This document shows positions 7,399 to 24,158 of a stretch of DNA of 41,810 nucleotides, in pieces. The notes beneath the pieces were generated by a model that saw nothing but the letters and a program-made list of their open reading frames with translations, had not been told where the DNA came from and did no database searches. Source of the stretch: an uncultured Gammaproteobacteria bacterium (GTDB lineage Bacteria > Pseudomonadota > Gammaproteobacteria > DRLM01). The stretch spans positions 1 through 41,810 of the forward strand of contig CAMYKQ010000052.1 of the NCBI GenBank assembly GCA_947259075.1, in the 5' to 3' direction. The position numbers were made by a program, and so were the translations under genes. Each line of letters opens with the position of its first letter. Position 1 is the stretch's first letter.

Positions 7399-8541
7399 AT
7401 GGCCGATGATTCTCGTATGCGCAAAGCTATCAATATCAACTCGCTCCACGCCGCACTTGCGAGCCGTGGGTGGACCCAGGCAGAGTTGGCTGCCGCAGTC
7501 GGGGTCTCCCCCCAATCTATTACGAATTGGTTAAAGGGCAAGGATTTTCCCAGACCCTCGGCCCTCCTCAAGCTGGCCACGACCCTTAAATTGAGTTTTG
7601 ATCGCTTGGTAGTCGTGACCGACGAGAGCCGCCCCATCGTCGCCTTTCGCAAGAGAGGCAACGCAAAAACCACTGCTGCGCACATCGCCAAGGCGGATGG
7701 CATTGGTATGCTACTCAAACCACTGGTGCCTTACTTGCCAGAGATCCAGGCGCTGCGCACCTTAATCACATCACCCTCCACTGACTATCACAAACTTGAG
7801 ATCGCAGTGGCGCAGACACGAACCCGTCTGGGTATCGGTGAGCGCGCCGTATTGGAGTACGAACACCTGATCAGTGATTTCAAGAGCAGCGGCGCCATAC
7901 TTGTACCCGTGCTGTGGGGAACGAAGCAACGCCATGAAAACGCCCTTCACATCCGCCTACCTGAGGAAGACGTTACATTTATCTTTCTAAACCTCGATAC
8001 CCGGCTCGAAGACTTCAAATTCTGGATGGCGCACGAATTGGCGCATGTTTACACGCCGGAACTCGCAGGCAGCAACGAAGGGGAAGACTTTGCGGACGCC
8101 TTCGCTGGCGCCTTGCTCTATCCCAAGGCCTGCGCCGAACTCACCTATAATGAAGCCATGCAACAAGCCAGCGCCGACGGCATAATTCGTGTTCTGCTTA
8201 CCCAAGCACATGCACATATCATTTCTATAAATACGGTCTATCAGCAGATTAAAAACTATGCGATGTCCTCTGGGCGCCCTGCGCTAGATGTTGAGGAGAA
8301 GACAATTCATGCCGTGCGCAATAGCAACCAGGGCCCGTTAATCAGTGCGGCGCTCTTCGACCCTATGCCGCCTGAACCCATGCGCTACATTGCCGCGTGT
8401 GAGCACGTATTCCAATCCGATTTCTTCGCGGCTCTGAAGCGTATGATCCACGAAAGCGGCACCGGGCCATCCTATGTACAACAGGTGCTTGATACCTCTA
8501 TGCAGGACGCCTTTGCGCTGCATGAGGCACTGCGCCATTGA
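7399..8541 (+). CDS. Xre HTH + ImmA/IrrE-type zinc peptidase (putative antitoxin/regulator)
   Basis: 380 residues. Residues 13-70 are an Xre helix-turn-helix (WTQAELAAAVGVSPQSITNWLKG). Residues about 195-245 hold the metallopeptidase signature HELAH (212-216) followed by NEGEDFADAFAGALLYP, which supplies the third zinc ligand, as in ImmA and IrrE. ImmA of ICEBs1 and IrrE/DdrO of Deinococcus cleave a repressor after DNA damage; here repressor and peptidase are fused. The stop codon overlaps the start of a PIN-domain gene by 4 bp, so the two are translated together. Xre-peptidase plus PIN pairs have been predicted as toxin-antitoxin systems, and that is the best guess here. Base composition is lower in GC than the neighbours, a sign of transfer. 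Confidence 0.8.
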   Translation: MADDSRMRKAININSLHAALASRGWTQAELAAAVGVSPQSITNWLKGKDFPRPSALLKLATTLKLSFDRLVVVTDESRPIVAFRKRGNAKTTAAHIAKADGIGMLLKPLVPYLPEIQALRTLITSPSTDYHKLEIAVAQTRTRLGIGERAVLEYEHLISDFKSSGAILVPVLWGTKQRHENALHIRLPEEDVTFIFLNLDTRLEDFKFWMAHELAHVYTPELAGSNEGEDFADAFAGALLYPKACAELTYNEAMQQASADGIIRVLLTQAHAHIISINTVYQQIKNYAMSSGRPALDVEEKTIHAVRNSNQGPLISAALFDPMPPEPMRYIAACEHVFQSDFFAALKRMIHESGTGPSYVQQVLDTSMQDAFALHEALRH

Positions 8542-9128
8542 CACTGGTTCTGCTTGATACCAATGCTTATCTGCGATTGGCCAAGCGCATCAAACCCATG
8601 CTGGGTGTTGAATTCGGACAGAAAGGCTATGTCCTTACGATTCTGAAACAGGTCGAAGATGAAGTTCTCGCAAGTGCAAAATTACGATTCAATTACCCCT
8701 GGTTTGACAATGCGGAGCTTGTTGCTGAGCGCCTAGCCCAAAGAATCAGGCTTAGACAGGACGAAAAAGAACAAGTAGAAGCGGCGACCAGCGTGCTTCG
8801 GGCACATGTCCTTGGCAATGCAGCTGCCTACACCTCGCAAGGCCGTTCCCCACCTTCACCAACTGACTGCTTTATTCTCGCCTTTGGTCAGATTCGACCG
8901 GCCATTGTGACGACCGATGATCTCGGAATGCACCTGCTTGCGAAAGACTTCGATATTCCTATCTGGCATGGTCATGAGTTGTTAAAGAAAATGCTCAGCG
9001 CAAAACTCATCGACAACGCACGAGTGCGTGAAATCTACGAGGCCATAGAGAACAACGACGATCTGCCACGCAGTTGGCGGGCTGTGAAACACACTGCCTT
9101 CATAAAAATATTTGGCCCAGCACCTTAG
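8538..9128 (+). CDS. PIN-domain ribonuclease (putative toxin)
   Basis: 196 residues from a TTG start that overlaps the upstream stop (TTGA). The N-terminus LVLLDTNAYLRLA carries the first catalytic Asp; SPTDCFILA and IVTTDDLGMHLLAKD carry the later acidic residues of the PIN fold, and the segment ends in an IPIWHG strand as in many PIN domains. PIN toxins are Mg-dependent ribonucleases that cut tRNA, rRNA or mRNA. The coupling to the Xre/ImmA-like gene points to a two-gene toxin-antitoxin or damage-triggered module. No ATG start fits better, because the conserved LLDTN begins four codons in. Confidence 0.75.
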   Translation: MTLVLLDTNAYLRLAKRIKPMLGVEFGQKGYVLTILKQVEDEVLASAKLRFNYPWFDNAELVAERLAQRIRLRQDEKEQVEAATSVLRAHVLGNAAAYTSQGRSPPSPTDCFILAFGQIRPAIVTTDDLGMHLLAKDFDIPIWHGHELLKKMLSAKLIDNARVREIYEAIENNDDLPRSWRAVKHTAFIKIFGPAP

Positions 9129-9519: not shown

Positions 9520-12500
9520 TTATTCGTCATCATACGTCATCCCAAAAACCGTGTCGGTCAACCAGTGGCGGAATGACTCGTTATCCTGAAATTGCTTAAA
9601 GAGCTGCGCGTCGTCGGTGAACAGCGCGGTGATCACTCGCTTTAGCGCCTTATCATGTTCGATGCGGGCGTTTTGGCGATCGGAGTGTTTCTTGGCGTTT
9701 TGGTAGGCTTGATCAGCGGCGACTTTCGTGGGAATCTCACCCGTGATGCGCTGCTCCATCCGTTTCGGATCGGCGAACAGCCCGCCAAACTGCTCATTGA
9801 ATGCCTTGACGATGTTCGACAACTTGTCCATCTCTGGCTCAGGTTTGCGGCCACCTCCCGACGTTGGCACAGGTTCTATTTCGGCGTTGGCGTCAGGCAA
9901 TGAAATCGCCATTGTTGCCTTTTTCTCCGCGCGGTAGCTGTCCATGTCGATGGCGTCGAGAATGCCTTTGGCGAGGTCTTCTTCAATGGGTGCGGGCAGC
10001 TTTGAGATCAGGAAGTTAAGGAAGATGGAGAGCTTCTCCCAGTCCTGCACGCCATAGGGCAGGATGGTGGCGAGGAAGTCGTATGTGCGCGTGAAGGCCT
10101 TGGCCTTGCCCTTGAAATCCACTTGCCCGTCTTCGTCGAGGTCTGTTACATAGACCGCGACGCACGCATCGAGGATGGGGTCCAGCTTGTCGCGATCGGC
10201 GCCTGCGAGATACAAACCCACCAGTGCGGTAATCTGCTCAGGGGAATAAACCTGATATTGATCCAGCTCCGCCTTCAGCGTGTGGAGTTTGTTCGGGTCG
10301 GTCTCCTTGCTGAGAATAGTCGTGCGATAGTAATCCGCGAAGGATTTCTCGATGGTAGCGGTGTCGTTCTGGAAGTCGAGCACGAAGACATCGTGCTTCT
10401 TCGGGTGCGCCCGGTTCAAGCGGGAAAGCGTCTGCACCGCTTTAATGCCGGAGAGTGGTTTGTCCACATACATGGTGTGCAGCAGCGGTTCATCGTAACC
10501 GGTCTGGAACTTCTCGGCACAGATGAGGAAGCGATACGGGTCTTCTTGAATTTTGTCGGCGATGTCGTTGCTGGGAAACCCATTTAGTTTTGCTTCGCTG
10601 ACCTTATCGCCTTTGTATTCCGGCTCGCCTGAGAACGCGACGATGGGCTTGTAGGGGCTCTTGATTTCCGTAAGGTAGGCGTTGAACGCAAAGTAGTATT
10701 CAATCGCGCGCTGGATGCTGCCCGTTACGACCATCGCTCTGGCCTGGCCGCCAATCTTCCGTTGGCCCATCACCTGCTCAATGAAGTGGTCCACCATGAT
10801 TTCCGCCTTGTCGCGTATGGCCTTGCTGTGGCTTTCCACATACACGCGGAGCTTCTTGCGAGCTTTCTTCACATCATACTCTGGGTCGCCTTCGACGGTC
10901 TTGGCGAGGCGGTAGTAGCTCGCAACGGGCGTGTAGTGCTTCAGCACGTCAAGGATGAAGCCCTCCTGAATGGCTTGCTTCATCGTGTAGGCATGGAAGG
11001 GGCGATGCTTTACCTCGTCTCCCACTTGGTATGCAATCCCAAAAATCTCCAGAGTCTTATTCTTCGGTGTCGCGGTAAAGGCGAAGTAACTGGCATTGGT
11101 GAGGAGCTTGCGGCTCTCGATAATGCTGTTGATCTTATCCTCCGTGGCCTCCTCTTCCACTTCCTCGCCACGTTCGGAGAGCGCCATGTTCATCTTGGCG
11201 GCGGTGCGTCCGCCCTGGCTGGAGTGCGCCTCGTCGATGATGATGGCGAATTTCTTACCCCGATGGGTCTCGCCTATGCTGTCGAGCACGAAGGGAAAGG
11301 TCTGCACCGTGGAGATGATGAGCTTTTTCCCGTCCTTGAGGAACTTGGCGAGCTGCTCGGTCTTCGAGCTGCCCGCGCCCTCCTTCACCGCGCCGATAAT
11401 GTTGCCGACCTGGGCAAAGCCTTTAATCGTCTCCCGGATCTGCTTGTCGAGGAGGCGCCGGTCGGTGATGACGATGATGGAGTCAAACACGTCCGCCCCG
11501 TCCTGGCGCAGACCGATCAACTGATGCGCCAGCCAGGCGATGGAATTTGACTTGCCGCTGCCAGCGGAATGCTGGATGAGGTAGCGCTTGCCGGCGCCAA
11601 ACCAGGCCGCATCGGCGAGGAGTTTGCGCACCACGTCCAACTGATGATAGCGGGGAAAAATCTGTACCCGTTTTTTCTTGCCCGTCTTCTCGTTCTTCTC
11701 CTCCACGATCTGGGCATAGTTCTCCAGAATATCGGTGAGGCCGCCGGGCGTGAGAATGCGCCGCCACAGATAGTCCGTCATGATGCCATAAGGATTGGGC
11801 GGATTGCCCGCGCCCTGGTTCCAGCCCTGATTAAAAGGCAGAAACCACGAATCCTTGGCCATGCCCTTCGCACCCTTCAGCGCGGTACACATCCGCACCT
11901 CATGGTCATCCATCGCAAAATGCACCACGCAGCGGCCGAACAAGAACAGCGTCTCGCGCGGGTCGCGGTCGCGCTTGTATTGCTCCTCGGCATCCTCGGC
12001 GGTTTGTTTGGTCAGGCTGTTTTTCAGCTCGAAGGTCGCCACCGGCAGGCCGTTGATGAACAACGCCAGGTCGAGCGCCCGCTTCGTTTGCTCGCGGCTG
12101 TAGTGGAGTTGGCGGGTGATGCTGAACCGGTTCGCCGCATGACGGGCCACCGCCTTCTCGTTCTCCGGCGAGGGCGTCCCATATAACAAGTCCACGTGAT
12201 ATTTCTCGTGGCTGACGCCCTTTCGCAACACGTCGATGATACCCCGGCGGGTGATTTCTCCCTGCAGGCGCGCGAGGAACTTGCGGCGCGTCGGACCATC
12301 GGTGCGCAAATCCAATGCCGTAGCAACGTCTTCCTGCGTCGCTTCGAGGAAGGTGGCCAACTGCGCCAAATCCACCGCATATTCCCGCTCGTAATCTGCA
12401 TTCGTGCCCGCGACCCAGCCAAAGCTCGTCATGGCGTTCACGATCAAAGACTCCAGCCCCTCCTCTTTCACGTTCGTCACCGGCGGCTTGTCGGGTGAGG

Positions 12501-13131
12501 CGGGCCGGGCGGTTTCGATGCGCTTGATGCCCCCGTCCGGGCCGAGCGGGGAAAACTCGATGCCATACGCCGCCTTCGCTGCATGAGGGCTGCCGGGAGA
12601 GAGCGCGAACTCATCCAAGAAGGCGATGAGCCGCGGGTCTTGTGACTGGAAGCCAAAAATGACACGCTCTGCAGCGTCCTTCGGCATTTCTAGCCTGACC
12701 AGCGAACTGTTGCTCGGGGTAACGGCCACGACCTTTACTTCGGTGTAGGTGACACCCGCGTAGGCCGCGGTCATCATGGCGAGCCGCAGCCGTTCCTTTT
12801 CCGTCATCCGCTCCACGTCGCTGGCGAGGATGAAATCCACCATCGCTTTCTGGCCGGCGGTCATGGCCGGCAACCGATCCCGCTCCAGCGCGCATGGCTG
12901 CTCTTTGAATCGCCGCAGTTGCGACGCGGGCCATTTCTCCGCATGGGAGCGGGTATGACAGTTGGCACAGAGGACGACCAAGTTGGCGGGGCTGTGATCC
13001 TGCGTATCACTCCAGGGAATGATGTGGGCCTTCTCCAGCGACACCGGCTCGCAATCGCAGGCGCATCGGTAGCGACACTCGAACAACAGTTCGCGTTGGG
13101 TCTCGATGGGGATGGCGGGCCGCTTGCTCAT
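9520..13131 (-). CDS. hsdR: Type I restriction endonuclease R subunit with N-terminal HNH domain
   Basis: 1203 residues. Residues 17-65 are an HNH/zinc-finger nuclease (HIIPW at 36-40, N50, CANCH at 55-59, H63), not part of normal HsdR. After a ~130-residue unassigned region, HsdR proper starts near 222: a PD-(D/E)XK nuclease with D353 and E367-L-K369, then the superfamily 2 motor with Walker A SAGSGKS (521-527), DEAH (632-635), AFTATPK, and QTLSRLNRAHPKK late in the motor. It translocates DNA and cuts unmodified DNA in complex with HsdM and HsdS. The ATG overlaps the hsdS stop by 4 bp (ATGA). The frame is intact throughout. The extra HNH gives the protein two potential nuclease centres. Confidence 0.93.
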   Translation of the reverse strand: MSKRPAIPIETQRELLFECRYRCACDCEPVSLEKAHIIPWSDTQDHSPANLVVLCANCHTRSHAEKWPASQLRRFKEQPCALERDRLPAMTAGQKAMVDFILASDVERMTEKERLRLAMMTAAYAGVTYTEVKVVAVTPSNSSLVRLEMPKDAAERVIFGFQSQDPRLIAFLDEFALSPGSPHAAKAAYGIEFSPLGPDGGIKRIETARPASPDKPPVTNVKEEGLESLIVNAMTSFGWVAGTNADYEREYAVDLAQLATFLEATQEDVATALDLRTDGPTRRKFLARLQGEITRRGIIDVLRKGVSHEKYHVDLLYGTPSPENEKAVARHAANRFSITRQLHYSREQTKRALDLALFINGLPVATFELKNSLTKQTAEDAEEQYKRDRDPRETLFLFGRCVVHFAMDDHEVRMCTALKGAKGMAKDSWFLPFNQGWNQGAGNPPNPYGIMTDYLWRRILTPGGLTDILENYAQIVEEKNEKTGKKKRVQIFPRYHQLDVVRKLLADAAWFGAGKRYLIQHSAGSGKSNSIAWLAHQLIGLRQDGADVFDSIIVITDRRLLDKQIRETIKGFAQVGNIIGAVKEGAGSSKTEQLAKFLKDGKKLIISTVQTFPFVLDSIGETHRGKKFAIIIDEAHSSQGGRTAAKMNMALSERGEEVEEEATEDKINSIIESRKLLTNASYFAFTATPKNKTLEIFGIAYQVGDEVKHRPFHAYTMKQAIQEGFILDVLKHYTPVASYYRLAKTVEGDPEYDVKKARKKLRVYVESHSKAIRDKAEIMVDHFIEQVMGQRKIGGQARAMVVTGSIQRAIEYYFAFNAYLTEIKSPYKPIVAFSGEPEYKGDKVSEAKLNGFPSNDIADKIQEDPYRFLICAEKFQTGYDEPLLHTMYVDKPLSGIKAVQTLSRLNRAHPKKHDVFVLDFQNDTATIEKSFADYYRTTILSKETDPNKLHTLKAELDQYQVYSPEQITALVGLYLAGADRDKLDPILDACVAVYVTDLDEDGQVDFKGKAKAFTRTYDFLATILPYGVQDWEKLSIFLNFLISKLPAPIEEDLAKGILDAIDMDSYRAEKKATMAISLPDANAEIEPVPTSGGGRKPEPEMDKLSNIVKAFNEQFGGLFADPKRMEQRITGEIPTKVAADQAYQNAKKHSDRQNARIEHDKALKRVITALFTDDAQLFKQFQDNESFRHWLTDTVFGMTYDDE

Positions 13132-14543
13132 GGGCTGTCCTCGGTGTCGATGTCTTCCAGCGCCTCGTCGACGACGGGTTCGTCAAGCGTAGCAACGGGC
13201 AGGTCGGGCAGCTTGGCCGCCGCCGCGCGCACGTCCAGCTTGCCCGTTACGATGTCGGCGGTCAGTCGGGTGCGGTATTCCTGCATCAGCGCGATCTCTC
13301 GCTCGGTGCGGGCGATGGCGGTGTTGAACTGCGCTAACTCACGATCCAATCGAGAAGCAATGACGCTTGCTTCTGCGAGTGGAGGAATGGCAAATGTAAA
13401 ACTCTTCAGTTCGGAAAGTGGAAGGTTATTTGCCATTCCTTCTGCTCCGCTTATTGCCTGTTCTACTTGTTGCCTGTAGTAAATACTGTTCATCGCATAG
13501 ACCATGAAATCGGTATAAACGATTGGGCGGAAGACAGCTCGGAAGGTCTTGTCCGACAAGATGAGTTTATAATCGAGCGCTTTAACCTTGCCCACTGACC
13601 CAACGAGCCTTGGCGAGCCGCAAGCTCGCGATATAAGAACATCATCGACTTTCACTATGATGGCTGGGTCAATCTCAAAATCAGCAGAAAGCTGCTTATG
13701 TTCGAACTGCCGGAATGTGCCGTGATTAACGCAACCTGACTTGAGAACGCCCCATGTGTTACCGACTGCTAGGAAGCCTGTAGCCTGCGGACTGACCCCC
13801 TGTTCGATCCTGCTGACAATTGTTCGTAACCTTCGCACCTCCCAATGCGCCGGTATGTCACCGATCCAGGGGATGCCGGAGGGCTTGAGGGGGACGTCGG
13901 GGTTAAGGCCGCGGGTGACGGCACGGTGGATGATGGCCTGCTTCTGCTCGTTCAGCAGCCCAATCAGCTTGCGCTTGGCGCGGATGAAGCCATCAATCTT
14001 GCGGTTCGCGTGGTCCAGAAACCGCACGATGGCGGCTTGTTCGTCGGGGGGTGGGAGCGGCACGAACTGATTGCCAAACATCTCATAGCGGAAGTCAGTG
14101 GACCGTTCTCGAATCCCTTTTGCTAACGCGAGAATCCATTGAGCCCGCGACATCTCACGAACGGTGTGCGCGTAGTAACGAGCCACGACGCCGGGACGCG
14201 GTTGGCAGACGTTGTAAACGGGCGTGCCTTTCCCATCGCTGTCAGAAACGCCAATCGCCCCTGCGAACGCATCCATTCCATGAATGACCAAGTCGCCTTT
14301 GCGTATTCCTTGGTAGCCTGATTCGACCGTCGCCTCGGTGAAGCCCCGAAGACGCCGGTTCTTTCGCAGAGTTACCATGCCATCACGAAAGCAGGTAACT
14401 ACTTCGTCCTGCGGTCTCACAGGGCGGTCCATCTTTGTAAAGAGCCATTTCGCCCGCTCTGTTTGCCATTCCGATGGTAAAGAACGCGCCCACGGAATAT
14501 CAGACTCCTTGTACTCCGCATACGGCTTAAGCCCTTCAATCAC
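13128..14543 (-). CDS. hsdS: Type I restriction specificity subunit S
   Basis: 471 residues from GTG 14543, whose GTGA overlaps the stop of the upstream gene; a longer frame to 14711 would read into that gene and is rejected. Two target-recognition halves are seen, each starting with the HsdS pattern: IPWARSLPSEWQTERAKWLF near the start and IPWIGDIPAHWEVRRLRTI in the middle. Each is followed by a conserved helix: PPPDEQAAIVRFLDHANRKI, and later PPLAEASVIASRLDRELAQF. The protein sets the bipartite DNA target for both methylation and restriction. The two recognition halves differ strongly, as expected, since they read different half-sites. Confidence 0.93.
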   Translation of the reverse strand: MIEGLKPYAEYKESDIPWARSLPSEWQTERAKWLFTKMDRPVRPQDEVVTCFRDGMVTLRKNRRLRGFTEATVESGYQGIRKGDLVIHGMDAFAGAIGVSDSDGKGTPVYNVCQPRPGVVARYYAHTVREMSRAQWILALAKGIRERSTDFRYEMFGNQFVPLPPPDEQAAIVRFLDHANRKIDGFIRAKRKLIGLLNEQKQAIIHRAVTRGLNPDVPLKPSGIPWIGDIPAHWEVRRLRTIVSRIEQGVSPQATGFLAVGNTWGVLKSGCVNHGTFRQFEHKQLSADFEIDPAIIVKVDDVLISRACGSPRLVGSVGKVKALDYKLILSDKTFRAVFRPIVYTDFMVYAMNSIYYRQQVEQAISGAEGMANNLPLSELKSFTFAIPPLAEASVIASRLDRELAQFNTAIARTEREIALMQEYRTRLTADIVTGKLDVRAAAAKLPDLPVATLDEPVVDEALEDIDTEDSP

Positions 14544-16366
14544 GACTGGCCCCCTTTCAGCAGGTCTGCCGGATTCCAGATGCGCTCGGCGATCTGGCGG
14601 TAGAGCTGGCTGCGGGTTTCGAGGTCGGTTTTCTTGAACTCGGCCAACGGGGCGAAAGGCAGGCCGCTTTGTTCCTTGAAGCGAAGGAAGCCGGGGTTGT
14701 GCTGGTAGCACTGCGGGTGCAGGGAGCGGGCCAGCAGGTTCTGGGTGTTGTAGTGCGGCAGTTTGTCCGCATAGGTGAGGTCGCCGTAGCTGGCGTTGAA
14801 GCTCTTGGGTAACAGCAACAGCCCGCCGATGCGGTTGCGGTGTTCGGCGAAGTCGGCGGGATGGCTGAACTCGTCGCTGTGGCGTTGCGGGTGGTCGGCC
14901 CAGATGTGTTCCACCTCATAGCGGGCCTTGCCTTCGCTGATGTAGTCGAGATAGCGCGAGGGTTGGCCGGACTGTGTTTCCACATAGTCGGTGAGGCGAG
15001 CGAGGATGCGGTGGAGCGGATAGCGGTTTTGCTGGTGCATTCGCAGGCCGTCGTTGCTGGCGAAGGTCTCGCTTTCCTTGCCGAGAACGTCGTGCAATTT
15101 GTGCGCAAGGGCATCGGGGTCGAGGCCGCGAATGTCGCGCATGACGAGGAACATGGCGTATTGCAGGGTCGAATACGCGATGGAGCGGAAATTCCACAAG
15201 CGCCAGGTGAGCAGGATGTCGAGGTAGTGCGCCACCAGGCCGATCTTACGCACGACGACCGCCTCGCCGTCATCCGGCCGCAGCGGGGCGAGCAGGAGCA
15301 TGTATTGCAGGGTGAAGCCGTGCTGAGCGTTGTACAGCACATGTTCCAGGCCGGGCACGGGTTGCCGTGCGGCCTCGATGAGGCGCAGGTATTGGCGGCT
15401 GTAGAAGTCGAAGTCGCGGTCTATGAAGCGGTAGAAGTCGTCGCTCTGCTTAAGGCCGACCGTGTCGGCGACATCGCGTAGCCAGCGGTGGAACTCGGTG
15501 CCGATACGGTCGAAGTCTTCCGGTTTCGCGCCCTTCTTACGCTCGCGGATTTTGGTGGCGTGCTGGCTGCGTAGCCAGGCCTTGAAACAATCGGCTTCCA
15601 CCTCCTTGCCCGCGTCATTGAGTTCGCGGATACGGTCGCGCCAGCGGCTGTTGGCGGCGGTGCGTTTGCTCTCGTCGATGTTGGCGAGCAGGTAGCCCTT
15701 GAGCATGTCCGTGGGGCTGAGGGAGAGACCACGGTCGTTCATGGTTTCGAAGATGGTGTAGGCGTCGTCGTCAGAGTAGGCGGTGATCTCGATGAGGTGG
15801 ACGTTTTCCAGCAGCCAATCGATGAAGTAGGGCAGGGCCACCTCGCCCAGCTCCTCGGGGAAGCAAGTTTCGAGGTCGGCGTAACGCTGCACGAGGTTTT
15901 GCACCGACTCGGGACGGTCGGTCACGTCGAAGGGCTGGCCTTCGTAGAGCGCGTTCATGGCGGGGGTACGCTCTTCGACGTGGAGGTTGAAGGACTTTTG
16001 GCCGTAGCGCTCTGAGAAGATCAGCTCATCGACATTCACTTTATCGGCGTGGTCTTTTTGCAGGTTGCGTAGGAGGATGAGCAATAGCGTAAGGCTGGTG
16101 AGACGCTGCTGGCCGTCAACGATGTAGCCGATGCTGTCTTTCTTGCTGATGATGATGGAGCCGAGGAAATAGTGCGGGTAGTCGGCGACTTTGCCGCGCG
16201 GATGGGCGGGCTGGTATTCCTCCAGGAATTTGCCGCACAGGTCATCCATGAGTTCGTGGATCTGTTTCTCGTGCCACTTGTATTCGCGCTGATAATAATC
16301 AATGGAATATTTCACGCCCTTGAGCAGCTCCCGCACGGTCTTGGCTTTGCCGAGGATTTCTCTCAT
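14540..16366 (-). CDS. GmrSD/SspE-like nuclease (DUF262 + DUF1524) inside the type I operon
   Basis: 608 residues. The N-terminal DUF262 domain shows YYQREYKW (24-31), DGQQRLTSL (84-92) and FETMNDRGLSLSPTD (206-220). The C-terminal part has a DUF1524-type HNH core: EVEHIW (484-489), RNRIGGLLLLPKSFN (510-524). This is the fused GmrS-GmrD arrangement of type IV enzymes that cut glucosylated-hydroxymethylcytosine DNA, and of SspE and BrxU. DGQQR is the nucleotide-binding motif and HNH the nuclease. The gene sits between hsdM and hsdS with 4-bp overlaps at both ends, so it is co-translated with the type I enzyme. It may attack phages whose modified bases defeat HsdR, or act with the methylase; its substrate is unknown. 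Confidence 0.88.
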   Translation of the reverse strand: MREILGKAKTVRELLKGVKYSIDYYQREYKWHEKQIHELMDDLCGKFLEEYQPAHPRGKVADYPHYFLGSIIISKKDSIGYIVDGQQRLTSLTLLLILLRNLQKDHADKVNVDELIFSERYGQKSFNLHVEERTPAMNALYEGQPFDVTDRPESVQNLVQRYADLETCFPEELGEVALPYFIDWLLENVHLIEITAYSDDDAYTIFETMNDRGLSLSPTDMLKGYLLANIDESKRTAANSRWRDRIRELNDAGKEVEADCFKAWLRSQHATKIRERKKGAKPEDFDRIGTEFHRWLRDVADTVGLKQSDDFYRFIDRDFDFYSRQYLRLIEAARQPVPGLEHVLYNAQHGFTLQYMLLLAPLRPDDGEAVVVRKIGLVAHYLDILLTWRLWNFRSIAYSTLQYAMFLVMRDIRGLDPDALAHKLHDVLGKESETFASNDGLRMHQQNRYPLHRILARLTDYVETQSGQPSRYLDYISEGKARYEVEHIWADHPQRHSDEFSHPADFAEHRNRIGGLLLLPKSFNASYGDLTYADKLPHYNTQNLLARSLHPQCYQHNPGFLRFKEQSGLPFAPLAEFKKTDLETRSQLYRQIAERIWNPADLLKGGQS

Positions 16367-18693
16367 GGCTTGACCCCTGCTGTGATCTCGCTCAGCAGAC
16401 CTTCCGTTTCCTGCTCCAGCGCGAGGATGTCGGCGCTGATTTCGGCGAGGGTGCGCAGCTTTGGCGGCTTATAGAAATGGCGGGTGAAGCTGATCTCATA
16501 GCCGATCTTGGTGTCGGCCTCGACGATCCAGGCGTCGGGGGTATAGGGCAGCACCTCGCGGCGGATGAAGGCTTCGATGCCGCCCTCCTCCAACAGCGGG
16601 ATTTGCTCGTGGTCACGCAGCTCGCTGTCGGGTTCGTATTCGACGACGCAGAGCTTGCCGTCGATCTCGGCCTCGAAGTGGCCGCGCAGCGGATCGGGGT
16701 GGGCCTTGCCGGGCTTGTGGATTTTTTTGATGACGCGGGCTGCGTCTTCCACGCGCCAACTGACGGCATTGATAATGAGCTTCAGGTCGGCGGCACTGGG
16801 TTTCAGGCTGAGCTTCTTGAGTGAGGCTACAAGCTTTTCGAGAAAGACATTGTGGTCTTCAAAGAGGCCGTCGCCGAGCGTTTCGCGGAGCCGAGTAGCG
16901 ACAGCGATGAGCATGGCATCGCGCTTCCATGTGGCCTCGTTGAGGAGCTTCTTTTTCTTCCCTTCCGGTAGCGTTTTTTTGGCCGTGCCGCCATCGCCTT
17001 CCTCGTCATCCTCCTCGACATCGCTTTTGCCCCAGTTGTTGACGAGTTTCTCCAGTTCCTTACGAACGGCGGCCGGCTTGTCAAAAAGGTCGTCGCCGAG
17101 CTCCTCGTAAAGCGCGGTGCGGATGTCTTCATCGCCCGAGGCATAGCGCAGAGTCTCGACGCGCTGGCGGCTGAGTTGGCTGTGCAGCCGCAAGGGGCGC
17201 TCGACCTTGACCTTCCAGTAACCGAAGGCGGCGTTGGGGAAGATTTTCGACTGCTCGGTTTCCTTGAAGGCGAGGAAGGTGTCACAGATGCGCTGGATGT
17301 CCTCCGGCGCGAGCTCGCAGTTCTTTTTGCCCATGTTCTTGCGCAGGGGCCGGAACCATTGGGTGGCGTCGATGAGCTGTACCTTACCCCGGCGGGGTTT
17401 GGGCTTGCGGTTCGAGAGCACCCAGACGTAGGTGGCGATGCCGGTGTTGTAGAACATGTTGAGCGGCAGAGCGACGATGGCCTCCAGCCAGTCGCTTTCG
17501 ATGATCCAGCGGCGGATGTTGCTTTCACCCTGACCGGCATCGCCGGTGAACAGGGACGAGCCGTTGTGTACCTCGGCGATGCGGCTACCGAGCGGGGTGT
17601 CGTGTTTCATCTTGCTCAGCATATTGGCCAGAAAGAGCATTTGGCCGTCACTGGAGCGGGTGACGAGGGAGTACTCCGGGTCGTCCCCGTGCTGGATGAC
17701 GAAGCGCGGGTCTTTCAATTCTTTCTTGCCACCCATGCGTTCGAGGTCGCTCTTCCAACTCTTGCCGTAGGGTGGATTGGCGAGCATGAAGTCGAACTCG
17801 CGGGAACGGAAGGCGTCGTTGGCCAGTGTCGAATGTTCCGGGCCGCCGACGATGTTGTCCGCGGCATCGCCGTCGCCCTTGAGCAGGAGGTCGGCCTTGC
17901 AGATGGCGTAGGTCTCGGCGTTGATCTCCTGGCCGTAAAGATGCGTGGCGACCTGCTTGCCGTGATCTTTCGCAATCTGCTGCAAGGTTTCCTCCGCCAC
18001 GGTCAGCATGCCGCCGGTGCCACAGGCGCAGTCGTAAAGAAGATAGGTGCCAGACTCGATCTTTTCGGCCACCGGCAAGAACATGAGGTTGGCCATCAGC
18101 CGGACCGCATCGCGAGGCGTCCAGTGCTCGCCGGCCTCTTCGTTGTTCTCTTCGTTGAAGCGGCGCACCAGCTCCTCGAACAGCGTGCCCATCGAATGGT
18201 TATCGAGGGCGGGCAACTCGCCCATGGGCTGCGGGCTGAGGTTGATGTCTTTGTCCAGGAATCTTTCGATGAGCTGGCCGAGGGCGTCGGCCTTGGACAG
18301 ACGCGGGATCTGATGGCGGAACTCGAAGTTGGTGAGGATGTCCTGCACGTTCGGCGAAAAGCCGTCGAGGTAAGCCTCGAAGTCGTCCTTGAGTTTCTGT
18401 TGGGTGGCGCGGGACTTCAGATCGCGGAGCAGGAACGGCGAGGTGTTGTAGAAGGCTTGGCCGGCGGCGGCGCGGAGGGCATCGTCTTGGTTGGCGACCT
18501 GCTCGCGGTCGAGCGCGGCTTTCATTTCTAGGACTGCCTGTTTGGTCGGTTCGAGCACAGCATCGAGGCGACGCAGAACAGTCATAGGCAAGATGACGTC
18601 ACGGTATTTGCCACGCACATAGACATCGCGCAGGATGTCGTCGGCGATGTTCCAGATGAAGTTGGTGAGCCAATTAAGTTGAGCTTGATCCAT
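16363..18693 (-). CDS. hsdM: Type I restriction modification methylase M subunit
   Basis: 776 residues, longer than the ~530 of classical HsdM. An HsdM N-terminal helical domain (1-150) precedes the N6-adenine methylase with AdoMet motif DCACGTGGM (221-229) and catalytic ANPPYG (305-310). The ~280-residue C-terminal extension carries an acidic tract (DVEEDDEEGDGG) and ends in a helix ILALEQETEGLLSEI that may contact HsdS. It methylates adenine in the HsdS target. It is the first gene of the four-gene operon; an AT-rich promoter region lies upstream. Its ATGA stop overlaps the GmrSD-like gene. Confidence 0.93.
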   Translation of the reverse strand: MDQAQLNWLTNFIWNIADDILRDVYVRGKYRDVILPMTVLRRLDAVLEPTKQAVLEMKAALDREQVANQDDALRAAAGQAFYNTSPFLLRDLKSRATQQKLKDDFEAYLDGFSPNVQDILTNFEFRHQIPRLSKADALGQLIERFLDKDINLSPQPMGELPALDNHSMGTLFEELVRRFNEENNEEAGEHWTPRDAVRLMANLMFLPVAEKIESGTYLLYDCACGTGGMLTVAEETLQQIAKDHGKQVATHLYGQEINAETYAICKADLLLKGDGDAADNIVGGPEHSTLANDAFRSREFDFMLANPPYGKSWKSDLERMGGKKELKDPRFVIQHGDDPEYSLVTRSSDGQMLFLANMLSKMKHDTPLGSRIAEVHNGSSLFTGDAGQGESNIRRWIIESDWLEAIVALPLNMFYNTGIATYVWVLSNRKPKPRRGKVQLIDATQWFRPLRKNMGKKNCELAPEDIQRICDTFLAFKETEQSKIFPNAAFGYWKVKVERPLRLHSQLSRQRVETLRYASGDEDIRTALYEELGDDLFDKPAAVRKELEKLVNNWGKSDVEEDDEEGDGGTAKKTLPEGKKKKLLNEATWKRDAMLIAVATRLRETLGDGLFEDHNVFLEKLVASLKKLSLKPSAADLKLIINAVSWRVEDAARVIKKIHKPGKAHPDPLRGHFEAEIDGKLCVVEYEPDSELRDHEQIPLLEEGGIEAFIRREVLPYTPDAWIVEADTKIGYEISFTRHFYKPPKLRTLAEISADILALEQETEGLLSEITAGVKP

Positions 18694-19123: not shown

Positions 19124-19699
19124 TTACCCCCGCCGCCATTCCCACGGACGTTGCTGTAAACCCGGTTCCCGCCATATGCCCACCCGCGCGGATTGGACAA
19201 TGCGCTGGGCATCTGTGTAGCTAGGCTCGCGACAGTATTTGGGATACACCGCGACGGCGCCGTCACGGACCATTTCCAGATTGAGGTTCACTCTCCCCCG
19301 CCACACCTCCCCCACAGTGCGGCCGTAGCGGTCGCGGGCTTTGACGTGCACGTCCACGGGGTCGTCGTCCACCAGTTCGCGCAGGTGATCGCGGGCCTGG
19401 CGGCCCCAGGGGGCTTGTTTCAGTTCCGGGGCATCGATGCAGTAGAGGCGGATTTTGAGTTTGCGCGACTGGTCGCGGTGGCGGTCGCAGTGCACGGTCA
19501 TCGTGTCGCCGTCGTGGATGTTGAGCACGGCGCAGTCGTCGAGGACGACTTGGTCCTTGGCCACGTGATGGATGCGGGCCTGGGCGATCCACGGTAGGGT
19601 GAGCGCCAACAGGGCCACAAACCAAAACAGGACGATGCGGCGGTGGCTCAGGTAGTCCGTGGCGTGACGGGGAAGCAATTTATAACTGAAGTCCGGCAT
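19124..19699 (-). CDS. Staphylococcal-nuclease-like exported or membrane-anchored nuclease
   Basis: 191 residues. A hydrophobic segment at 22-40 (IVLFWFVALLALTLPWIAQA) is a signal peptide or anchor, so the enzyme should act outside the cytoplasm. The SNase fold follows: NIHDGDTMTVHCD, then RLYCIDAPELKQAPWG with the Arg, Asp and Glu of the active site, then KARDRYGRTVGEVW with the second catalytic Arg, and QSARVGIWREPG near the end. It hydrolyses DNA or RNA with Ca2+ in known members. Such thermonuclease-like proteins are common on conjugative elements. It lies downstream of the LexA-polymerase cassette but has its own TATAAT-like promoter box. Confidence 0.85.
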   Translation of the reverse strand: MPDFSYKLLPRHATDYLSHRRIVLFWFVALLALTLPWIAQARIHHVAKDQVVLDDCAVLNIHDGDTMTVHCDRHRDQSRKLKIRLYCIDAPELKQAPWGRQARDHLRELVDDDPVDVHVKARDRYGRTVGEVWRGRVNLNLEMVRDGAVAVYPKYCREPSYTDAQRIVQSARVGIWREPGLQQRPWEWRRG

Positions 19700-19706
19700 G
19701 CGCCGG

Positions 19707-19712
19707 ATTATA
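19707..19712 (-). promoter_or_regulatory. -10-like box for the SNase gene, leaderless start
   Basis: On the minus strand TATAAT ends 7 bp before the ATG at 19699, inside a strongly AT-rich tract (19707-19740). Transcription would then begin at or next to the ATG. The -35 region is weak (TTTAAT-like). Confidence 0.4.
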
Positions 19713-19790
19713 TATAATTTTAACTTATATTAAACCTGCGCATAATGATTCCTGCCAGCTTTGGCCGGTGTGATCGCCTCGTTCCGCCAA

Positions 19791-20201
19791 TCAGCCGCAC
19801 AGGATCCGCGGCCAGCGCGTATGGATGGCATCCTCGACTCGGGGCTCGACGGTGACCACGTAGACGCGCCGCTCATGACCGTCACGCGCCACTAGACCTT
19901 GTACCCACTTGCCAGCGGTGATGTCGTACCAGCGGGCTTGGCCTTCGATGTCTTTTTCCATGAAGCTGAGCAGCGGCAGTTTCACCGGCTGGGGAAACCA
20001 GCGGTCCCAGTGGCCGGCGTAGATGCCTTCGAGCCGGGCCCAGCCGCCCAGCGGCAGTTGACCTTGTTGGTGTTGGCGGCGGCCCCAGGGCAGCAGCTCG
20101 ACGTCGCCGCAACGAATGCGCACCGGCAGCTGTGCGTGGGCGGTGGCGAAGGCAAGTCGCCACTCACGGCCGTCGTGGCAGTAGAGAACGGTTTCGCACA
20201 T
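19791..20201 (-). CDS. Short SRAP/YedK-like protein (SOS-response-associated)
   Basis: 136 residues, shorter than the ~220 of YedK/HMCES. By eye the SRAP landmarks are in order: Cys2 directly after the initiator Met, PWGRR (WG), WARLEG in place of NARxET, SFMEKD in place of the FxEW segment with its Glu, and IHTRWPRIL for the IHxRMPxIL motif with its His. In YedK, Cys2 forms a thiazolidine crosslink with abasic sites in single-stranded DNA, and the Glu and His assist. The Asn of NARxE is replaced by Trp here. The ATG starts one base after the polymerase stop (TGA G ATG), so it is translationally coupled to an error-prone polymerase, a fitting context for lesion handling. Confidence 0.7.
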   Translation of the reverse strand: MCETVLYCHDGREWRLAFATAHAQLPVRIRCGDVELLPWGRRQHQQGQLPLGGWARLEGIYAGHWDRWFPQPVKLPLLSFMEKDIEGQARWYDITAGKWVQGLVARDGHERRVYVVTVEPRVEDAIHTRWPRILCG

Positions 20202-20202
20202 C

Positions 20203-21438
20203 TCAGCGCCGCTGCTGAATGGTGTCGCGATGGCCGTAAGGTTTCCACGCCGGGGCGATGACGTTGGGCATGCTGGAGCGGCCCAGAAGCCGCGCGGGGG
20301 CGAGCGCGAATTCGCCGTAGCGTTGATTGATGGCGTCCATCACTTGATTACACGCGGCACGGCGCGGGGCGCTGTCGCCGAACATATCGCCCTGCGCCAG
20401 GGCGGGACGCGGATCGAGCGCGGTGACTTGCACTTGATGCACGCCTTGCCCGCGCCAGTGTTGTTCCAGCATGTTGCGGCACAGCGCCAGTACAGGCGCG
20501 GCATCGTCCGTGGGATATTCGCTGCGGTAATGCCCGCCGAGCCACTCATCCGCACGCAGGCCGATGAAAAATGTCCGTGCGTGTAATTGGTGGCGGCGCA
20601 AACGCACGGCGACCTTGAAGGCCATGTGTTCGAGATAGGTGATGATCACTTCGTGGGAACGCGTATTGGGCGGCATGACCTTGCCATGGCCCACGCTCTT
20701 GGGCGCGGCCACCTGCGTTTGCACCGGCGCGGGATCGAGGCCTTGCGCCATGAGCCAGATGCGGCGGCCGATATCGCCCCAGCGCCGCGCCAATTCACTG
20801 ATGGGCAGCTTGGCCATGTCGCCGCAGCTGCGCACGCCGCGCGCGGCGAGGTAGCCGCCGATGCCGTGGCTGATGCCGCACAAGTCGGTGACGGGCACGT
20901 CACGCAAACGCGCCGCCGTCTCCCACGGCGGGATGACGGTGAGGCCGTCGGGCTTGCGGAGTTTGGCGGCGTATTTGGCGGTGGTCTTGTCGCCCGAGAC
21001 GCCCACCGAACACAGCAGGCCCGAGGCCTCGTACACCGTGCGTTTGATGCGGCGGGCGACCGTGTCGGGCGGCCCCCACAGCGACTGGCAGGCGGTGAGG
21101 TCGAGATATGCTTCGTCCACCGAGAACACTTCGACATCGGGCGTGATGGTGATGAGCGCGTCCATGATGGCGGTGGACACCGCGGCATAGCGCTCGGGGC
21201 GCGCGGCCACGGCAAGGAAGTGCGGACACAGGCGCCGCGCCTCTTTGACGCGCATGCCGGTGCGGATGCCGAAGGCGCGCGCCTCGTAGGAGCAGGTGAT
21301 GATGCAGGTGCCCTGCGCGCCGTTGGTGATGCCGATGGGGCGGCCTTGCAGCTCGGGCAGATCGCGTTGCTCGATGGCGGCGAAGAAGGCGTTCATGTCC
21401 ACCAAGGCGATGACGCGGGGCCAGTGCGGCGTGGTCAT
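20203..21438 (-). CDS. Y-family (DinB/UmuC-type) translesion DNA polymerase
   Basis: 411 residues. Catalytic acids are in place: ALVDMNAFFAAIEQRD (first Asp and the Phe steric-gate region) and SVDEAYLDL (Asp-Glu). SVGVSGDKTTAKYAAKLRKPDG matches the conserved finger/palm segment, and a little-finger domain follows. QGDMF near residue 350 resembles a beta-clamp-binding motif. The protein copies past DNA damage at the price of mutations. It is the second gene of the cassette, 7 bp after lexA, followed by the SRAP-like gene. Length and sequence fit UmuC/DinB-like polymerases carried by mobile elements; I cannot say whether it acts as Pol IV or Pol V, and no umuD-like partner other than the LexA-type protein is present. 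Confidence 0.92.
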   Translation of the reverse strand: MTTPHWPRVIALVDMNAFFAAIEQRDLPELQGRPIGITNGAQGTCIITCSYEARAFGIRTGMRVKEARRLCPHFLAVAARPERYAAVSTAIMDALITITPDVEVFSVDEAYLDLTACQSLWGPPDTVARRIKRTVYEASGLLCSVGVSGDKTTAKYAAKLRKPDGLTVIPPWETAARLRDVPVTDLCGISHGIGGYLAARGVRSCGDMAKLPISELARRWGDIGRRIWLMAQGLDPAPVQTQVAAPKSVGHGKVMPPNTRSHEVIITYLEHMAFKVAVRLRRHQLHARTFFIGLRADEWLGGHYRSEYPTDDAAPVLALCRNMLEQHWRGQGVHQVQVTALDPRPALAQGDMFGDSAPRRAACNQVMDAINQRYGEFALAPARLLGRSSMPNVIAPAWKPYGHRDTIQQRR

Positions 21439-21445
21439 GGCGGCC

Positions 21446-22036
21446 TCAGCGGTAACCGCGCAGCAGGCCGACCACGATGCCCTGAACGGTCACGCGCGCG
21501 CCGCTGTAGGTGACGGCTTGCAGCGCGGCGTTGGCCGGGATCAGGGTGACGCCGCCGTCGCGCCGGTGCTTGATGCGCTTGAGGGTGGCGTTGTCGCCGT
21601 CGATGAGCGCCACCACGATGTCGCCGTCCTCGGCGCGGTCGCGCTGTTGCACGATGACCGTGTCGCCGTCGAGTATCCCCGCCTCCACCATGGAGTCGCC
21701 CTGGACGTGCAGGGCAAAACGATCCGGCCCCAAGAAGAAATCGGCGAGGTTGAGGGTGTCCCTCCCCGGAATGGCCTCGATGGGCTGCCCGGCGGCGATG
21801 CGGCCCAGCAGCGGCAGGGACAGCGGCGCCACCTGCCCCGTGAGCCGCAGGGCGCGCCAGCCCTCGCCGCGCTCCAGATAGCCCTTGTCCACCAGGACCT
21901 GCACCAGGCGGTGCACCGCGCCCTTGGAGCACAGGCCCAGGGCCGTGCCGATTTCCGCCAGCGTGGGCGCGTGCCCCTCCCGCGCGAGCTGGTCGCGGAT
22001 GACGTGCAGGGTCAGGGATTGCTGGCGGGTGAGCAT
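21446..22036 (-). CDS. lexA: LexA-type SOS repressor (element-borne)
   Basis: 196 residues from ATG 22036, which gives the standard LexA start MLTRQQSLTLHVIRDQL; the longer frame to 22135 reads through the operator. The winged helix has APTLAEIGTALGLCSKGAVHRLV with Lys-Gly in the recognition helix. The S24 domain has an Ala-Gly cleavage pair in GRIAAGQP, the nucleophile Ser in GDSM and the Lys in ATLKRI. RecA-stimulated self-cleavage would open the promoter. It heads an operon with a Y-family polymerase and an SRAP-like protein. Its promoter holds two arms of a 12-bp inverted repeat, so it is probably self-repressed. It may also serve as a UmuD-like partner, but the full DNA-binding domain favours LexA. 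Confidence 0.9.
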   Translation of the reverse strand: MLTRQQSLTLHVIRDQLAREGHAPTLAEIGTALGLCSKGAVHRLVQVLVDKGYLERGEGWRALRLTGQVAPLSLPLLGRIAAGQPIEAIPGRDTLNLADFFLGPDRFALHVQGDSMVEAGILDGDTVIVQQRDRAEDGDIVVALIDGDNATLKRIKHRRDGGVTLIPANAALQAVTYSGARVTVQGIVVGLLRGYR

Positions 22037-22041
22037 GGGGT

Positions 22042-22093
22042 AAGTTCTCAAAAGGTTCCCATTCAGCATAGGGGAGGTTTTGAGAACTTTCAA
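22042..22093 (-). promoter_or_regulatory. lexA-polymerase promoter with inverted operator sites
   Basis: On the minus strand TTGAAA (22088-22093) and TATGCT (22065-22070) stand exactly 17 bp apart. AAGTTCTCAAAA (22042-22053) and its exact reverse complement (22078-22089) flank the -10 region and overlap the -35 edge. The left site reads GTTC-N7-GTTC on the plus strand (22044-22058), the form of the SOS box known from alphaproteobacteria. LexA bound here would cover the transcription start. Confidence 0.7.
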
Positions 22094-22159
22094 GCGGGGT
22101 CGGACCGGAACACATCTTAACCCGTAACCAGGCACAGTGCGTTTAGGCGCGTGTTGCTA

Positions 22160-22456
22160 TCACATCAAATCGATAAGCGCGAGGAACATCGGTGGAAGCA
22201 AGGCGATAAGCAGCGCCGCAAGCCACAAACGGACCGGGCGTAACCGGCGCCAAGCCACGATCAGACCGATGAAGGCGACCACTACCAGCGCGACGGACGC
22301 GTAGAATGACAATGGGACTGCAAAGGAAAAGACCAAGGCCAAGCCCATGTCGCCTTGGCCGAGGGCCTCTGCGTTGCGGCCCCAGAAGCTGATGAAGAAG
22401 GCACTGGCCACCATCACCGGCAGCATGAGAAAAACGGCATGGTCCTGCTTCATCAT
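22160..22456 (-). CDS. Small membrane protein, unknown
   Basis: 98 residues that are almost wholly hydrophobic, with three likely membrane segments (about 9-25, 38-66, 75-95) and a basic loop WRRLRPVR before the last. No family is recognised. It lies between the YdjM-like gene and lexA, in the same direction. An overlapping frame (22143-22475) is a poorer candidate because it lacks membrane character. Holin-like or regulatory roles are possible, but nothing supports either. Confidence 0.5.
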   Translation of the reverse strand: MMKQDHAVFLMLPVMVASAFFISFWGRNAEALGQGDMGLALVFSFAVPLSFYASVALVVVAFIGLIVAWRRLRPVRLWLAALLIALLPPMFLALIDLM

Positions 22457-22481
22457 TTGCGCCGTCGATAAACACCGCCAG

Positions 22482-23576
22482 CTAGTTAGGCAATTGCTTC
22501 ATCAGTGATGTCGGCAAACCTGCCTTAGTTTCCGTCAACTCAATCACCGGCGTCCTGCTCCGCGGTGGATGCCGCAGCTGTACCTGCAATGACACATTCC
22601 GCAACGAGCGTGGCAACACCGTATCAATGCCGATTACATCGGCCAGAGATAGCGCAATGTTGTCACCCGCCACCCCGACAGTCGATGGCATCGGCTTCAC
22701 GCCGCGCGCGTTCAGCATGCCGCTGACATAAACCCGCCCCGCTTCCTCGGCCTCTTGCAATGCCTTTATCAACGCTTCTTTCGTCGTGCGCTTGGCGGTG
22801 AGGGTGATCGTGCTAATAACCTCCGGCTCACCGCGTTTTAACACCACATGCTCGGCATACCAATCACACTCGCTGCTCTTGCACGCGGTGACGGCGCCGT
22901 GGTCGGTGTCGAGCAGGAAGCCGTTGGCTTTGTAAGGCGCGATGACGTAGTAGCGGCCACTCACTGGCTTGAACGCTCTATTGTCTTGGCCTTCGATGTC
23001 CAGCCACCACGCATACCCTGATTTGTGCGCGTCGTAGTGTTCGCGCGCGGCGCCGATGTCGGCCACCCAGTCACGGATGAGGCCCAGCGGGCCGCTGGCG
23101 CTTTGCGCGGCCCAGGCGACCGGGAGTGAGAGCGCGACGATCAGAACGGCGAAGGCCAGTTCGCCCCAGCTCATGGCGGCGATGCGGTATTGGGCGTTGC
23201 CGGGAATGACGCAGCGCACGCGCGCGGGCCAGAACCAGGCCACGCCGGCCGGGGTCATCATGTCGGCGATGGGGTGGGAGGCAAACCCCGCGATGAGCGC
23301 TAGCCACCAGCCATAGGGCAGCGGCCACGCCAGCGCGGCGAGCAGCGATAACGCGATGAGCGAGTGCGTGGCGGTGCGGTGCCCGACCCAGTGCTCAAGG
23401 GGACCGGACAACCACGGCACCAGACGGCCGACGATGCCTTCGCGTTTGTCGAGATCGGGCAGCAGGGCTGCGAACGCGGCGGCGGTGGCTTCGGGCGCGG
23501 TGGGGGCGTGGCCGGTTGCCAGGGCGGCGGTCAAGTAAGCGAATTGTCCGACGATGAGGTGGGTGGGCGTCAGCAT
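22482..23576 (-). CDS. YdjM-like membrane-bound metal-dependent hydrolase
   Basis: 364 residues. The N-terminal half carries the YdjM/COG1988 pattern: MLTPTHLIVG, LLPDLDKREG, HWVGHRTATHSLIAL and FASHPIADMMTPAGV with conserved His and Asp that could bind metal, set among four to five hydrophobic segments. The C-terminal ~190 residues are hydrophilic and unusual, with two cysteines in TACKSSECDW. E. coli ydjM is LexA-controlled, so its place near an element-borne lexA is notable, though no GTTC-N7-GTTC box was found before it. The substrate is unknown. Start chosen because THLIVG follows directly. Confidence 0.75.
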   Translation of the reverse strand: MLTPTHLIVGQFAYLTAALATGHAPTAPEATAAAFAALLPDLDKREGIVGRLVPWLSGPLEHWVGHRTATHSLIALSLLAALAWPLPYGWWLALIAGFASHPIADMMTPAGVAWFWPARVRCVIPGNAQYRIAAMSWGELAFAVLIVALSLPVAWAAQSASGPLGLIRDWVADIGAAREHYDAHKSGYAWWLDIEGQDNRAFKPVSGRYYVIAPYKANGFLLDTDHGAVTACKSSECDWYAEHVVLKRGEPEVISTITLTAKRTTKEALIKALQEAEEAGRVYVSGMLNARGVKPMPSTVGVAGDNIALSLADVIGIDTVLPRSLRNVSLQVQLRHPPRSRTPVIELTETKAGLPTSLMKQLPN

Positions 23577-23619
23577 TAGGCAGACTCTGGTATAGAGAGA
23601 TAACTTAGGGGTAACGCCA

Positions 23620-24027
23620 TCATGCCAAGAGTGGATGAAGCAGGATGTATACCCAGAAGGCCGTCAGCGCGAGAGGGATCACCTTCCATGGATACAATTT
23701 GGTGATCAGCTTCGGCGTGATCTCAGCGCTGCGCAACGCAATCACTCTCGGTCCCGCATCAACGCCTGAACGGTGCTTCTCCCAGTCATCGGCCAGTTTA
23801 CGTATCGCCAAGGTATTGCAGTGGAGCTTTGCGCTGATCGAAACGCAGAAGATCAAGCCCACCAGGGCGATGGGCGCAATCAGATAGGGATCTTTTCCCC
23901 AGATAAAACCCAGCGCTGCCATTAACAAACCATTCGAGGCGACCAGCCAATTCAAGGCTTGGTCGCGCAGGACGTTCTCATGCTCGATCATTGAGCGCAC
24001 GATTGCGGCATAATCCACGTCGTCCAT
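23620..24027 (-). CDS. Small multi-pass membrane protein, unknown
   Basis: 135 residues from ATG 24027, preceded by GGAG at a good distance; a longer frame to 24162 has no such site. A polar N-terminal helix (IVRSMIEHENVLRDQALNWL) leads to hydrophobic segments at about 28-42, 48-65 and 112-132 with a polar stretch between. Proteins starting with EHENxLRDQRLNWL and two to four membrane helices are widespread hypotheticals. I cannot assign a function; membrane effectors of defence systems have a similar build, but that is only a resemblance. Confidence 0.55.
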   Translation of the reverse strand: MDDVDYAAIVRSMIEHENVLRDQALNWLVASNGLLMAALGFIWGKDPYLIAPIALVGLIFCVSISAKLHCNTLAIRKLADDWEKHRSGVDAGPRVIALRSAEITPKLITKLYPWKVIPLALTAFWVYILLHPLLA

Positions 24028-24158
24028 GTTGCGCGTCTCCGTACTGAATGGGGCGAGTTCCATCCAGATGAAAACGCCGGCCACCTGCGAGCGTCGACAC
24101 TCATGAAACTGCCTACCTATCAGTATAGGCAACGCTGCGGTTGAGGATGTCACCACGC

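Follow-up and report, generated by a model that had tools for sequence, protein, structure and literature searches.

A GmrSD-type nuclease gene between hsdM and hsdS as probable exchangeable cargo of type I restriction operons

We analyzed a 41,810-nucleotide stretch of DNA from an uncultured Gammaproteobacteria bacterium (contig CAMYKQ010000052.1; hereafter the window), in which a type I restriction operon carries the gene of a GmrSD-type nuclease, called D here, between the methyltransferase gene hsdM and the specificity gene hsdS. D has intact domains and catalytic residues, it occupies a conserved slot with a 4-base-pair (bp) overlap on either side, its family has switched frequently between embedded and standalone positions, and its co-evolution with hsdM is poor. 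D is probably an autonomous anti-phage nuclease, controlled by nucleoside triphosphate (NTP) and directed against modified (phage) DNA, which travels as an exchangeable, translationally coupled cargo of type I operons.

An intact nuclease gene within a four-gene operon

The genes hsdM, D, hsdS and hsdR form a single run on the minus strand, with a 4-bp overlap at all three junctions. The 776-residue HsdM, an N6-adenine methyltransferase subunit (16363–18693), matches Pfam N6_Mtase (E-value, E = 1.6e-51), HsdM_N (2.3e-24) and the PADLOC model MTase_I PDLC03029 (1.5e-255). D itself (14540–16366) encodes 608 amino acids, with DUF262 and DUF1524 domains recognized by Pfam and supported by the matches of an AlphaFold2 model, DUF1524 being an HNH nuclease domain with a His-Me finger. 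The specificity subunit HsdS has 471 residues when read from GTG (13128–14543; Methylase_S 9.9e-8, PADLOC Specificity_I 4.2e-102), and the translocase and nuclease subunit HsdR has 1203 (9520–13131; HSDR_N 2.9e-19, SWI2_SNF2 5.1e-24, ResIII). HsdR also matches the TIGR00348 hsdR model (E = 4.6e-57), with 193.9 bits falling below the cut-off of 284.55. The type I restriction-modification gene set, HsdM, HsdS and HsdR encoded together, is therefore complete according to Pfam, PADLOC and TIGR00348.

The original prediction, made from the sequence alone, placed 4-bp overlaps on both sides of D, and both are there: ATGA between hsdM and D (16363–16366) and GTGA between D and hsdS (14540–14543). The junction sequence between hsdS and hsdR adds a third one, ATGA at 13128–13131, which the prediction had not mentioned. 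Because of the GTGA overlap with the stop codon of D, hsdS likely starts at the GTG at 14543, and not with the longer open reading frame (ORF) from 14711. A promoter scan of the operon was uninformative (4 sites found, 3.7 expected). The overlaps recur among relatives of D: hsdM and D overlap by 4 bp in at least 12 of the 22 relatives with hsdM directly upstream, a count that is too low where the tblastn match begins past the start codon (for example in L050), and D and hsdS do so in 20 of 28.

The two domains of D are well above their curated cut-offs, with GmrSD_N (PF03235) at residues 12–226 (E = 6.9e-32, 111.6 bits, cut-off 33.2) and GmrSD_C (PF07510) at residues 446–547 (E = 1.2e-6, 28.9 bits, cut-off 23). 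In the GmrSD family, DUF262 is an NTPase and modification-sensing domain, and its DGQQR motif serves NTP hydrolysis. We aligned D with 74 relatives to measure motif conservation. Across these 75 sequences, the DUF262 motifs QR (Q26-R27), DGQQR (D84–R88; 16103–16117) and FxxxN (F206..N210) are all invariant, the last within an invariant FETMNDRG at residues 206–213 (15728–15751). The HNH core runs from E486 to K535 (EHIWA..RN..N..K; 14762–14911), where E486, H487, W489, N524 and K535 are invariant, N511 is 95% conserved, and the proline of the EHxxP motif is replaced by A490, also at 95%. RNRIGGLLLL begins at residue 510. The motifs first noted in D (DGQQR at 84–88, FETMNDRG and the EHI...RNRIGGLLLL core) are thus all present, and are invariant or nearly so. 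An internal stop interrupts D in five of the 79 relative intervals tested (L019, L043, L070, L079, L081); in the window the gene is intact, which rules out a decayed gene.

A recurrent slot and an exchangeable occupant

We scanned one genome per species and fetched the best 80 of at least 472 relatives of D, 53–89% identical to it, determining their context with profiles built from those loci. In 29 of the 80, D lies between hsdM and hsdS; hsdS is seen downstream in 27 of them, and the other two (L030, L031) end at a contig end. The titles of these 29 records name 14 phyla and one unnamed bacterium; such phylum labels mostly come from metagenome bins on short contigs, where mis-binning is possible. 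D follows hsdS and precedes hsdR in four relatives (L026, L038, L092 and L085, the last with weak R and S matches), lies near other restriction genes outside either slot in four, and is standalone in 18 and probably standalone in three, the context being undecidable for 22. We scored D as standalone when at least 4 kb of flanking sequence was available on each side and its own strand held no HsdM-, HsdS- or HsdR-like ORF within 6 kb; the opposite strand of L021 does carry hsdR- and hsdS-like ORFs. The original prediction had proposed a search for this gene order across genomes and named uniqueness to the strain as grounds for refutation. The order hsdM-D-hsdS recurs, and its 29 occurrences rule out an arrangement unique to the strain. 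Together with the Pfam domains, these relatives in hsd slots bear out the predicted GmrSD-type nuclease within a type I operon.

The gene is rare close to home. One of six genomes in the window's own family carries it, as do four of 369 genomes in a sample of the class (E threshold 1e-40, own genome included), and a blastn search of E. coli genomes gave no match. Plasmids carry it as well. Copies on a Rhodococcus plasmid (58% identical) and a Pantoea plasmid (43% identical) are both standalone, with no hsd gene annotated nearby in the incomplete PLSDB gene tables and none detected by tblastn with HsdM, HsdS and HsdR. On a Deinococcus plasmid, D directly follows hsdM-hsdS. Viral contigs hold 25 loci with relatives of D, ten of which (L138–L147) cover most of the query at 38–54% identity. 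The family also occurs in a third position, directly upstream of hsdM: more distant DUF262 proteins (27% identical) lie there at L112:7238–8968 and L118:223–1971, and the arrangement of L118 is shared by an Enterobacter plasmid. Far from being a local oddity, the GmrSD-type enzyme between hsdM and hsdS represents an exchangeable module that is widespread in type I operons.

A tree of 95 D sequences quantifies the exchange. It has 55 labeled rows, 35 embedded and 20 standalone, and requires at least nine changes between the two states. Four loci first scored as embedded on distant or weak matches (L022, L072, L076, L084) were set to no label. Three with internal stops were kept by their best-scoring ORF piece, L019 and L070 as standalone and L043 as embedded, and the Deinococcus copy (L004) counts as embedded. 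We also compared pairwise distances across 20 operons with all four genes, namely the window and 19 of the 29 loci with D between hsdM and hsdS. The correlation is 0.97 between M and R, 0.64 between M and S, 0.33 between M and D and 0.28 between D and S. As M-D lies at 0.33 against 0.64 for M-S, exchange between operons is freer still for D than for the specificity gene. Single operons illustrate this in both directions: in L032 and L035, M is 88% and 84% identical to the window's and D 62%, while in L017 M is 69% and D 79% identical, and in L013 (by tblastn) M is 71% and D 89% identical. D also accompanies HsdMs that are just ~42–48% identical to that of the window. The distance correlation and the tree disfavor D as a dedicated partner of HsdM.

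Conversely, we inspected what close relatives of the window's HsdM carry in the same slot. At an E threshold of 1e-150 there are 19 rows in 18 of the 369 class genomes; 17 of the 18 rows besides the window's own were fetched (G212, at a contig end, was omitted). Because none of these 17 operons has a D of the window's family between hsdM and hsdS, D is dispensable to that HsdM. In nine of them M leads directly to S (L117–L120, L126–L130), and four carry identified cargo: a YhcG/DUF1016 PDDEXK nuclease (L114, and L116 where no hsdS is seen), Abi_2 with Hypoth_Ymh (L123), and SIR2-like with HerA (L125). The content of the remaining four is unassigned (L115, L121, L122, L124). The SIR2-like and HerA pair lies at L125:9022–12551, between hsdM and hsdS. 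Operons that do bear D hold further cargo, including YhcG (L013, L016), RhuM (L016), an AbiEi antitoxin (L055), DUF4062 proteins (L035, and L032 just under cut-off), AlbA_2 (L029, L083), DarT with a macro domain (L035), a PLD-like protein just under cut-off (L033) and an HEC-01A-type ATPase (L082). Pairs of DarT and a macro-domain-like protein lie between hsdS and hsdR at L035:14316–16050 and L127:5512–7220, as in a published island of enteropathogenic E. coli. In that island, DarTG2 sits between hsdS and hsdR, a site that its authors call a potential hotspot (PMC12255303); it resembles D as defense cargo of a type I operon and differs in being another cargo in another slot.

The mark read by the nuclease and alternative roles

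The AlphaFold2 model of D has a mean predicted local distance difference test (pLDDT) score of 88.7 and a predicted template modeling (pTM) score of 0.72. Its far best structure matches, over most of the chain and in Foldseek as well, are DndI (9jfl; Z 22.6, 515 residues aligned, root-mean-square deviation 7.0), SspE (Z 16.6–19.8) and BrxU (Z 11.3–11.8). The D sequence profile likewise reaches DndI and SspE and does not reach BrxU. As modeled, the D subfamily is structurally nearer to DndI and SspE, which read a self mark, than to BrxU, a ranking that may reflect the intertwined dimer conformation of BrxU. The best PADLOC models for D are HEC-06 (E = 8.6e-37), followed by the model group 'Orf5'. 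HEC-06, an Hma-embedded candidate, is described as embedded in Hma clusters and not in type I clusters. Payne and colleagues reportedly treat embedded defenses in a preprint of 2024.

A GmrSD-type enzyme in a type I operon is already known in kind, having been noted in 2015 and named in print in 2024, so the novelty implied by the original prediction was overstated. Type I components are the most frequent neighbors of GmrSD homologues (PMC4619093). The DUF262 protein RloF of Campylobacter jejuni also belongs to a type I locus, where it differs from D in sitting between hsdS and hsdR (cited in PMC4619093). A close parallel is TgvAB, termed 'type I-embedded GmrSD-like', from the type I operon of Vibrio cholerae pathogenicity island VPI-2, which blocks phages with modified cytosines even when HsdR is inactivated (PMC11411939). 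It shares with D a DUF262/DUF1524 enzyme within the hsd operon, the same motifs and the logic of complementary defense; it differs in consisting of two proteins, both required and encoded between hsdS and hsdR, whereas D is a single 608-residue chain between hsdM and hsdS. The type IV enzymes GmrSD, Eco94GmrSD and BrxU likewise have DUF262, DUF1524, DGQQR and HNH, but they carry EHxxP where D has EHIWA, and BrxU matches D less well than DndI and SspE do. BrxU cuts DNA containing 5-methylcytosine, 5-hydroxymethylcytosine or glucosylated 5-hydroxymethylcytosine (PMC8565348). For the hsdM-hsdS slot of such an enzyme, no description turned up in the literature, in which subscription papers were mostly outside reach.

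By analogy with these systems, the operon would provide expression, and translational coupling would keep the amount of D in step with those of HsdM and HsdS. DUF262 would sense modified, probably phage-borne, DNA and hydrolyze NTP, and this hydrolysis would lead the DUF1524 HNH domain to cut or nick the sensed DNA. D would act without HsdM or HsdR, so that a single operon would deal with unmodified DNA through its type I enzyme and, simultaneously, with modified DNA in a type IV-like manner. The general mechanism, in which sensing by DUF262 and NTP hydrolysis control the HNH cut, is well grounded in the relatives DndI, SspE, BrxU and TgvAB. The idea that the operon pairs restriction of unmodified DNA with an attack on modified DNA, as originally predicted, draws its support from analogy, namely from TgvAB acting with HsdR inactivated (PMC11411939). 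Which mark D reads is a real question, as the subfamily appears structurally closer to self-mark readers than to BrxU.

Several observations weigh against an autonomous cargo aimed at phage marks. The slot is strongly preferred in the sampled clade nearest the window: in the smallest starred tree group that contains it, six of seven rows are embedded (five named phyla, the window's row having no phylum) and one is standalone. The M-D correlation is weak yet not nil (Mantel p 0.0105). TgvAB alone protects 10–100 fold less than the whole cluster, for which its authors suggest stoichiometry (PMC11411939). Finally, DndI and SspE, which the model indicates as the nearest solved relatives, use a host mark and not a phage mark.

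The last point leads to an unlikely alternative, in which HsdM methylation serves as a self mark, as the original prediction had also proposed. DUF262 would then read N6-methyladenine set by the operon's own HsdMS. Self DNA bearing this methylation would release or license the enzyme, and phage DNA lacking it would face a second nuclease in addition to HsdR. DndI and SspE sense phosphorothioate in host DNA through a patch of P23, Y25 and Q26 in DndI or Y30 and Q31 in SspE, and couple this sensing to NTP hydrolysis and nicking (PMC11662687, PMC9646914). They outrank BrxU in structure (Z 22.6 and 17–20, against 11–12) and in the profile search, D keeps Y25 and Q26, and it is tightly coupled to hsdM and hsdS. 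Yet the P-x-Y-Q patch is not complete in D, where D23 replaces P23 in 99% of the 75 sequences; the patch of DndI and SspE reads sulfur in the backbone, while N6-methyladenine marks a base, within the groove; and neither DndC (TIGR03183) nor DndB (PF14072) has a match in the window's own genome (n = 1). An SspC model also found no match there, but was uninformative as its control was silent everywhere; SspB and SspD were not searched. Standalone copies, switching of context, the poor tracking of M and S by D and its company with divergent HsdMs weaken this alternative further; what supports it is that the nearest solved structures read a self mark. We consider distinctly unlikely its specific form, in which D is a DndI-like reader licensed by its own HsdMS methylation and one methylase serves two unrelated nucleases, the translocating HsdR and D. 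If true, this would parallel the phosphorothioate-sensing systems with base methylation as the mark, and the operon of this strain would gain a third nuclease active site from the HNH-fused HsdR described below.

D might instead guard the type I enzyme, staying quiet while bound to HsdM or HsdS and being freed once that enzyme is disabled by an Ocr- or Stp-like inhibitor from a phage. PrrC in EcoprrI is a precedent, and the same slots of related operons contain genes for abortive infection or toxin-antitoxin systems (DarT with a macro domain, AbiEi, AbiD/Abi_2, SIR2 with HerA). The standalone and plasmid copies, though, have no adjacent type I enzyme to guard, and D co-evolves poorly with M and S, so we hold this role to be rather improbable. 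Least credible is an extra nuclease subunit, bound to HsdM2S and cutting DNA translocated by HsdR. The position of D between both methylase subunit genes, with its 4-bp overlaps on each side, would suit such a subunit; elsewhere, however, D lies after hsdS or outside the operon, it is swapped independently of M and R, and L013, whose operon yielded no hsdR, retains an intact D that is 89% identical.

An HNH domain fused to HsdR and the surrounding genes

HsdR has an N-terminal extension of ~215 residues (12487–13131) with an HNH domain at residues 19–65 (12937–13077; PF01844, 2.9e-7), a feature that the original prediction had overlooked. The extension is read in frame from the ATG overlapping the stop codon of hsdS. 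We compared it with the HsdRs of the class sample, in which 44 of the 369 genomes have matches, giving 48 HsdR rows at an E threshold of 1e-120. In all 47 others the alignment starts at residue 159 or later, mostly at 211–238. In other searches the HNH part matches nothing but small HNH ORFs, in 3 of 397 other genomes of the phylum (37–41%) and in one of 72,556 plasmid records. On viral contigs, the HsdR N terminus gave seven pattern matches and no relative. Residues 45–140 match CBASS HNH-SAVED effectors weakly. No description of an HNH-HsdR fusion turned up in the accessible literature, which is weak evidence of absence. Because the HNH domain stands where other operons have separate genes between hsdS and hsdR, it may be a cargo of that slot that became joined to hsdR. 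No second case of this fusion came up in any of the sets searched.

Adjoining the operon on the plus strand, at 7399–9128, is a pair of genes with a 4-bp overlap, one encoding a helix-turn-helix (HTH) and M78 peptidase-like protein (best PADLOC model RmrA) and the other a 196-residue protein without a Pfam match. Farther out, 984–5066 on the minus strand is possibly another defense gene; it encodes a 1360-residue protein in which Pfam recognizes an HTH at the N terminus, an nSTAND NTPase domain and, weakly, an Mrr-type nuclease. On the other side, between the operon and a tRNA-Arg gene (28983–29059) with core genes beyond it, the region 19124–28528 carries SNase-like, YdjM, VRR-NUC and HTH_36 genes and a pair of a UmuC-type polymerase and a LexA-like repressor. 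This region resembles a mobile island; a search for attachment repeats of at least 22 nucleotides found none. Within it, a tandem array at 27303–27437 consists of units of ~33–69 nucleotides, each partly self-complementary.

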